DNA from: Thermoplasmatales archaeon SW_10_69_26 | GTDB lineage: Archaea; Thermoplasmatota; SW-10-69-26 | NCBI GenBank assembly: GCA_003009755.1 | Contig: PXUB01000041.1 | Span: 56,827-62,200 of the forward strand | Reading direction: 5' to 3' | DNA: 5,374 nt | Part shown: positions 5,040 to 5,374 of the stretch, piece after piece | Numbering within the stretch: the first letter of the stretch is position 1 | How the letters are laid out: every line of letters starts with the position of its first letter | Made by a program: the position numbers and the translations under genes | Notes under the pieces: model-generated | What the model saw: only the letters and a program-made list of their open reading frames with translations | The model's database searches: none | Told to the model about the DNA's origin: nothing

Positions 5040-5125
5040 GGGGCCTGGTCGTCGGCGACCCCGGGTTTCTGTTTCCTGAGGGTTTTTATTTTTCCGAGGT
5101 CGCCGGGCGTGGAGGCCGTCGAGTC
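5040..5125. repeat. T-tract hairpin element, left (degenerate) copy
   Basis: The stem runs from 5052-5065 to 5093-5106: eight perfect pairs (CGGCGACC 5053-5060 with GGTCGCCG 5098-5105), one C/A mismatch (5061/5097), three more pairs, and G/T at each end. The loop has TTTCTGTTT, CCTGAGGG, then TTTTTATTTTT. Similarity to the right copy extends outwards: GGGGCCTGG (5040-5048) on the left, and CGTCGAGT on the right (ending at 5125) after an extra 11 nt or so. It is therefore a duplicated segment, not merely a similar hairpin. Confidence 0.8.
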
Positions 5126-5200
5126 GGTGGGTTCGCTGTTGCGGGTCCGGTGGCGATAGCCCTGCGTGAAGACCCAGTAGCGTCCAAGGTCCGGACCGAT

Positions 5201-5277
5201 GGGGCCTGGGCCGCCGGCGACCCCGGGTTTCTTTTTCCCGAGGGTTTTTCTTTTCCCGGGGTCGCCGGACGTCGAGT
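5201..5277. repeat. T-tract hairpin element, right (perfect) copy
   Basis: A 14-bp perfect inverted repeat, 5214-5227 with 5255-5268 (core GGCGACCCCGGG), encloses 27 nt made of TTTCTTTTT (5228-5236), CCCGAGGG (5237-5244) and TTTTTCTTTT (5245-5254). The T-tracts are near mirror images, so they cannot pair with each other, while CCC and GGG can form a tiny inner stem. The stem ends 12 nt from the stop of the truncated transposase-like gene. On the plus strand the GGG plus T-tract resembles terminator signals. Terminator, insertion-sequence end and dispersed repeat are all possible. Confidence 0.85.
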
Positions 5278-5280
5278 GTA

Positions 5281-5374
5281 CTATCCAGGGACCTCGTTGA
5301 CGAGCCTGTACACGCCCTCCTCTGTGATCAACCCTGCCAGGTACACTTCGCTTGGAGTCTGGTAGTCCAGCGCC
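5281..5374 (-). CDS. C-terminal end of a transposase-like protein (truncated by window edge)
   Basis: Thirty residues and a TAG stop are visible, beginning ALDYQTPSEVYLAG and ending LVNEVPG. The 'L-x-Y-x-T-P-x-E-V-Y' pattern is typical of the last part of the integrase-core (rve, DDE) domain of IS3/IS481-type transposases, where it follows the catalytic region. The catalytic residues would lie outside the window, so activity and intactness cannot be judged. A 14-bp stem element begins 12 nt past the stop, a usual distance for an insertion-sequence end. The assignment rests on one short motif, so a host protein cannot be excluded. Confidence 0.5.
   Translation of the reverse strand, partial: ALDYQTPSEVYLAGLITEEGVYRLVNEVPG

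Follow-up and report, generated by a model that had tools for sequence, protein, structure and literature searches.

The window analysed here, a stretch of 5,374 nucleotides (nt) forming the end of contig PXUB01000041.1 (C41) in the 2.8-Mb genome of Thermoplasmatales archaeon SW_10_69_26, carries the genes for FttA/aCPSF1 (64-1980), a proteasome subunit, a PRC-barrel protein and a subtilase and, near its 3' end, a GC-rich hairpin that abuts the tail of an insertion sequence (IS). We are fairly confident that this hairpin is a copy, split by the IS, of a dispersed archaeal element whose plus strand adopts the fold of an H-type pseudoknot containing a triple helix in the major groove. Of the three strands that make up the element, the window site holds just two, and the third lies beyond the IS that starts at 5277.

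The hairpin consists of a perfect 14-bp GC-rich inverted repeat enclosing two T-tracts, TTTCTTTTT and TTTTTCTTTT, with CCC-GA-GGG between them (coordinates in Table 1). The two tracts are mirror images of one another and do not pair mutually, as the sequence-only reading of this DNA had noted. The predicted RNA fold is stable on both strands (-40.4 kcal/mol and z -4.03 on the plus strand, -38.9 kcal/mol and z -4.01 on the minus strand), and its energy was equalled by none of 200 shuffled sequences. A second, decayed copy is located 162 bp upstream (84% identity over 75 nt). Because of this copy and the presence of about 30 copies in the genome, the hairpin is not a product of chance. The earlier description of opposed pyrimidine tracts clamped by GC stems, unlike an ordinary terminator, refers to a designed feature, and mirror symmetry of this kind is what a pyrimidine-motif triple helix requires.

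The copies in the host genome, about 30 according to a covariance model built on 11 of them, share the order P1, P2, Y2, loop, Y1, P2', P1' and R0 on the plus strand, where P1 and P2 are stems, Y2 and Y1 are the two U-rich tracts and R0 is a third strand of the AAAGAAAAA type. P1 (GGGGCC/GGCCCC) and P2 vary on both sides, yet stay paired. R0, an A-rich tract 3' of the hairpin, is present in the intact copies; on the minus strand it reads GAGC-ATTTTTCTTT, which often starts within a stop codon. Its pairing partner is a tract in the P2 loop, and the extension of this helix beyond the T-tract (X/X') covaries as GAG:CUC, GACC:GGUC, GAAG:CUUC, GAAC:GUUC and GCAG:CUGC. The complementarity of Y1 and R0 exceeds that of copy-swapped controls (P 5e-5 for the host copies and likewise for the relatives described below). 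As the mirror of Y1, Y2 thus runs parallel to R0, its U facing A and its C facing G.

The apical part is variable: the window copy has a CCC/GGG stem, long copies carry extra hairpins and the relatives frequently have no apical stem at all. In the long copies (L106, L107, L110, L113, L090, L096, L100 and L101) the extra hairpins in the loop or between P2 and P1 are nearly identical, whereas P2 and the tracts differ, which suggests an exchange of modules between copies. Two of these copies, L110 and L113, are 90% identical and also agree over about 20 nt at the tail of the gene upstream. Scans with the Rfam covariance models revealed no family above threshold, only tRNA and chance matches.

The element is not restricted to the host. 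A scan for the three-tract pattern covered 389 genomes of the phylum and gave matches beyond AT-rich chance in three of them (G322, G320 and G043). These genomes contain a cleaner version of the element, which reads P1, GA, GCAGG-P2, Y2, loop, Y1, P2'-CCAGC, RSA, P1' and R0. A second covariance model, built on seven copies from these three genomes and on none from the genome of the window, recovers the window hairpin itself (5216-5266, E 0.003), together with further copies in the three genomes, at least one in a fourth (G079) and at least three in the genome of the window; these numbers are minima, as no more than 10 candidates per genome were scored. In all four related genomes the same architecture is built on unrelated stems. 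A motif search within the class of G322 was positive in 20 of 200 genomes, with up to 21 exact copies each and none in a backwards control, so at least 20 genomes of the phylum besides that of the window carry this architecture. The sequence-only reading had proposed such a search of the host and its relatives, and named as refuting it a lack of other copies together with a lack of transcript ends or structure signal at the site; with copies found in both, this refutation fails.

Outside these genomes the same motif search gave no match in many complete genomes of other families, and pattern scans of viral contigs found none. We regard 13 scattered matches of the pattern scan in named genome contigs of unrelated bacteria as chance, as well as the weak matches of a further model (R1) in 40 relatives. 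Among the related copies, one (L208; G043:C71:24979-25130) has a hairpin inserted beside Y1, and two (L210 and L185) lack the C/G register and carry the other tract pairs UUAUAACUUUUU:AAAAAGUUAUAA and AACUUUUU:AAAAAGUU.

From the relatives 112 distinct copies were parsed and 104 were aligned for covariation tests, in which related copies count as independent although they are not. With the helices P1, P2 and Y1:R0, 88.0% of the cells are paired compared to 74.9% after shuffling, there are 391 double changes compared to 127, and the covariation score is 0.357 compared to 0.140, while slid partners reach 0.118 at most. Over more than 100 copies these values argue strongly for covariation of all three helices. 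Outside the tracts, Y1 and R0 have 2.92 pairs in common, compared to 1.69 (standard deviation 0.10) for swapped partners. By this alignment evidence, the A-rich strand is the predicted Watson-Crick partner of the 3' U-tract.

The third strand can be judged from the register of the tracts. Three run lengths, U before C in Y2, U after C in Y1 and A before G in R0, are identical in 86 of the 104 copies, with values of 3, 4, 5 and 6, and when Y2 was permuted against R0 none of 10,000 permutations was as good. The parallel Hoogsteen register reaches a P of 5e-5 (1e-4 in the reduced set) versus 0.003 (0.008) for the antiparallel one, and asymmetric cases, for instance UUUCUUUUUUU with AAAGAAAAAAA, decide for the parallel register; one family carries AAAGAAAGAG with UUUCUUUCUC. 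The covariation thus indicates that the 5' U-tract lies in a parallel Hoogsteen register (U·A-U and C+·G-C), and the triple helix as such is very likely. As to the strand, G-U pairs outnumber A-C mismatches over P1 and P2 of the relatives (83 vs. 31) when the plus strand is read, and tandem G.A/G.A replaces Watson-Crick pairs in both stems, which would be pyrimidine mismatches on the minus strand. The plus strand is therefore the folded strand.

In the proposed structure P2 forms the stem of a hairpin whose loop holds Y2 and Y1. The downstream R0 pairs with Y1, lengthened by a few further pairs, and Y2 runs alongside R0 in the parallel orientation; this much is shown by the sequences. U·A-U and C+·G-C triples may then form as in the ENE/MALAT1 RNA. 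If it is RNA that folds, at the 3' end of a transcript or close to it, the triple helix would hold the A-rich tail fast and keep 3'-5' exonucleases away from it. The opposite strand carries a T-tract as the complement of R0, and this tract may end the transcription of a convergent gene or tRNA, so that the element might act as a transcript boundary.

The surroundings of the copies bear on this role. Eleven host copies start 2-7 nt past the stop codon of a gene on the minus strand, and such T-tracts are rare behind ordinary host genes (6 of 212). A T-tract on the coding strand just after the gene, as in a putative archaeal U-tract terminator, is accordingly present in these 11 copies but not in the window copy. 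In the relatives the R0 side, when near (up to 60 nt), faces a convergent gene or tRNA end in 10 cases versus 2, and the 5' side faces the tail of a gene on the same strand in 10 cases versus 3. The R0 end abuts the 3' end of a tRNA gene on the other strand in eight copies (L176, L177, L178, L188, L200, L205, L226 and L230), with the adjacency of L188 and L200 judged from the flanking sequence. U-tracts together with aCPSF1/FttA end archaeal transcripts (PMC8716108), and the T-tract complementary to R0, placed behind a convergent gene, fits this type of terminator. The role is probably to protect RNA 3' ends, to mark a transcription boundary close to the 3' ends of genes and tRNAs, or both, and an RNA end structure doubling as a transcript boundary is the most likely reading. 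End protection taken by itself is a tentative assignment, with a chance somewhat short of even. The same caution applies to the proposal of a new class of archaeal RNA, namely a genome-encoded triple-helix end structure, present in dozens of copies per genome, which would cap and stabilise transcript 3' ends and also end the convergent transcript.

Several aspects of the gene tails were noted separately. The genes that end at the element use TAG in 8 of 11 cases (23% in the genome) and have phenylalanine at codon -3 in 8 of 11 (3% in the genome); tails with this bias, TTCNNNNNNTAG, occur at L087, L090, L096, L103, L106, L107 and L110. The idea that such F-x-x-stop ends are C-termini supplied by the element was rejected, since the RtcB gene at copy L093 ends in what we take to be the native RtcB C-terminus, and the element there thus follows a native stop. 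A protein-coding 3' domain was also rejected: the frame is open in several copies, but the conserved copies L061, L066 and L073 have stops or frameshifts. A plain terminator between convergent genes does not describe the host copies either, as convergent genes do not predominate among their neighbours on the right (8 to 11).

A number of observations weigh against the proposed explanation. The Hoogsteen signal is weaker in the host copies alone (P 0.002, and 0.02 in the reduced set) because their tracts are nearly symmetric, and near-symmetry of several tract types also explains why the antiparallel control lies above chance. In the host copies G-U and A-C mismatches are equally frequent, so that the choice of strand came only with the relatives. 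The counts of gene contexts are small and rest on crude gene calls. The sequence evidence would fit RNA and single-stranded DNA alike. Once P1 has formed, the linker from P1' to R0 is short and would have to bridge P1 and P2 unless the conserved internal loop bends sharply, and P1 and the triple helix may therefore alternate. Transcription could already stop at the U-tracts Y2 and Y1, ahead of R0, and the patchy distribution is what one expects of a mobile repeat.

Among the other explanations, a bidirectional archaeal terminator or insulator, in which the T-tracts stop transcription from both directions and the complementarity is a by-product of one preferred terminator sequence, is possible but rather unlikely. 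The T-tracts shortly after stop codons in the host, the proximity to tRNA 3' ends in G322 and other genomes, the scarcity of such tracts behind ordinary host genes and the known mode of archaeal termination all agree with it. The sequence-only reading had put forward a U-rich target for FttA-type factors and an insulator against antisense transcription as candidate roles, and since the copies lie beside the 3' ends of genes and tRNAs, a transcription boundary is still conceivable. However, it leaves unexplained why the non-T extension covaries, why Y2 is a mirror and not a repeat of Y1, why three strands share one register and why P1 and P2 carry tandem G.A.

Slightly less probable is a miniature mobile element of the MITE, REP or BOX kind, whose single-stranded DNA hairpin and triplex would be recognised by an enzyme acting in trans and whose structure would be kept for mobility. 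The copies are indeed dispersed, numerous, modular with their extra hairpins, patchily spread across families and sometimes in tandem, and one pair shares 20 nt of gene tail. In contrast, the stems differ widely within a single genome and each is still paired, as expected of a function at each site; the genome contains no TnpB, and there is no consistent target sequence and no copy in viral contigs. Clear element ends were not seen. The search for TnpB, which included positive controls, also speaks against an IS605/TnpB guide RNA.

An intrastrand DNA triplex (H-DNA-like) that acts on replication or genome stability rather than as RNA is improbable. The plus-strand structure can be drawn equally well as DNA, and intrastrand triplex motifs are known from bacterial genomes (PMC4666352), where a single strand likewise carries mirror-symmetric tracts able to form a triplex. 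That motif is G/C-rich, however, whereas the archaeal element is A/U-rich with two further covarying helices, and its position is tied to gene and tRNA 3' ends, while the tandem sheared G.A pairs and the tolerance of G-U are typical of RNA.

In the preferred reading, the triple-helix pseudoknot is interrupted in the window by the adjacent IS. A search with the flanks identified 5277-5374 as the end of a multicopy IS and 5138-5276 as a dispersed repeat. The IS, whose ends TGTACTATCC and TGAGCAATCC are imperfect inverted repeats, is also found at the ends of contigs C15, C31, C42 and C44. The R0 of the window copy was predicted beforehand as the complement of UUUUUCUUUU, and P1' plus R0 was searched genome-wide with up to 3 mismatches. 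This gave two places, one of them 114 bases from the end of contig C44, where the other IS end is followed by GTCGCCGGACGTCGAG-GCCCCCTAG-AAAAGAAAAA-GGCTC. The 16 bases GTCGCCGGACGTCGAG thus stand on both sides of the IS, on C44 and in the window, and together with the inverted repeats at the IS ends they indicate that the element was intact until the IS entered it and duplicated 16 bp of the target, the join being deduced from contig ends and not from reads; the earlier reader saw two of three strands. As R0 is parted from the hairpin, the window copy should be inactive. A DNA cruciform recognised by the transposase of the neighbouring element, which the sequence-only reading had proposed and to which the contact at 5277 lends some appearance, is very improbable, and the view that the hairpin forms part of the mobile element is not supported either, since other copies of this unrelated IS (L033, L034) lack the hairpin, about 30 copies of the element lack the IS, and 16 bp of the element were duplicated when the IS interrupted it.

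Table 1. Features of the element and its surroundings in the window.
Feature	Position	Strand	Remarks
Decayed second copy, stems	5040..5105	+	P1 5' arm 5040-5045; P2 5053-5064/5094-5105
Decayed second copy, tracts	Y2 5066-5074; Y1 5083-5093	+	TTTCTGTTT (Y2) and TTTTTATTTTT (Y1); no A-tract after
Conserved domain 5' of hairpin (GTTGC..GATAGCCCTGCGTGAAGACCCAGTAGCGTCC..)	5138..5200	+	72-94% identical copies at about 20 genome places; also alone or in tandem elsewhere
P1 5' arm GGGGCC	5201..5206	+	partner GGCCCC on contig C44, on the far side of the IS
P2 (lower stem) 5' arm	5214..5227	+	double compensatory changes across 11 copies
Y2, U-rich, proposed Hoogsteen partner of R0 (UUUCUUUUU)	5228..5236	+	mirror of Y1; register covaries with R0 in related copies
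Apical CCCGAGGG	5237..5244	+	CCC/GGG possible short upper stem
Apical GAG	within 5237..5244	+	can lengthen the Y1:R0 helix (CTC after R0); such extension covaries in relatives
Y1, U-rich, Watson-Crick with R0 (UUUUUCUUUU : AAAAGAAAAA)	5245..5254	+	
P2 3' arm	5255..5268	+	double compensatory changes across 11 copies
Direct duplication of 16 bp on either side of the IS (GTCGCCGGACGTCGAG)	5261..5276	.	second copy on contig C44, before GCCCCCTAGAAAAGAAAAAGGCTC
3' end of multicopy IS (transposase tail ..LDYQTPSEVYLAGLITEEGVYRLVNEVPG, then stop; end TGTACTATCC)	5277..5374	-	imperfect terminal inverted repeats

The family is a predicted ENE/MALAT1-like triple-helix pseudoknot. As in the ENE type, a GC-flanked hairpin bears U-rich tracts on either side of an internal loop, in the window (5214-5268) and in more than 100 relatives, and as in the ENE with A-rich tract of MALAT1, MEN-beta and KSHV PAN the strands are anchored by flanking helices. 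Unlike these RNAs, the archaeal element is dispersed in many copies with a variable apical part, possesses P1 as an outer helix, in which a GA/RSA internal loop is conserved, and has its A-tract encoded beside a convergent gene or tRNA end; homology in sequence is not claimed. In the telomerase RNA pseudoknot, which is also of the H-type, the U-rich loop 1 occupies the major groove of a U-A stem. This layout is the same as that proposed for the archaeal element, but the stems and the role differ. We know of no ENE/MALAT1-like triple-helix pseudoknot in archaea, and a literature survey of partial coverage found no archaeal or bacterial ENE. The repeats of the REP, BIME, BOX and MITE types are likewise dispersed, intergenic, palindromic, modular and found in tandem; the archaeal pseudoknot differs from them by a third-strand covariation that is kept across families, and neither terminal repeats nor a transposase were found for it.

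ENE-type triple helices that protect RNA ends are known from viral and eukaryotic RNAs (PMC11411715), and the ENE/MALAT1 arrangement comprises nine U·A-U triples and one C+·G-C triple (PMC11411715), compared to a predicted eight and one in the window copy. The ENEs of plant and fungal transposable elements, such as Evade (PMC12501189), resemble the archaeal family in being repeated and dispersed triple-helix elements. However, they use the poly(A) tail of a retrotransposon RNA, whereas the archaeal A-rich strand is genomic and no retroelement was seen.

The window illustrates that a hairpin with seemingly unpaired tracts can be what an insertion has left of a three-strand structure, and the many natural variants of the element offer material for reading the rules of triple-helix register. 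If the proposed function is true, RNA end structures of the ENE type would extend to prokaryotes, as a counterpart of the end protection in MALAT1 and PAN, which raises the question of how archaea protect or define the 3' ends of their RNAs.
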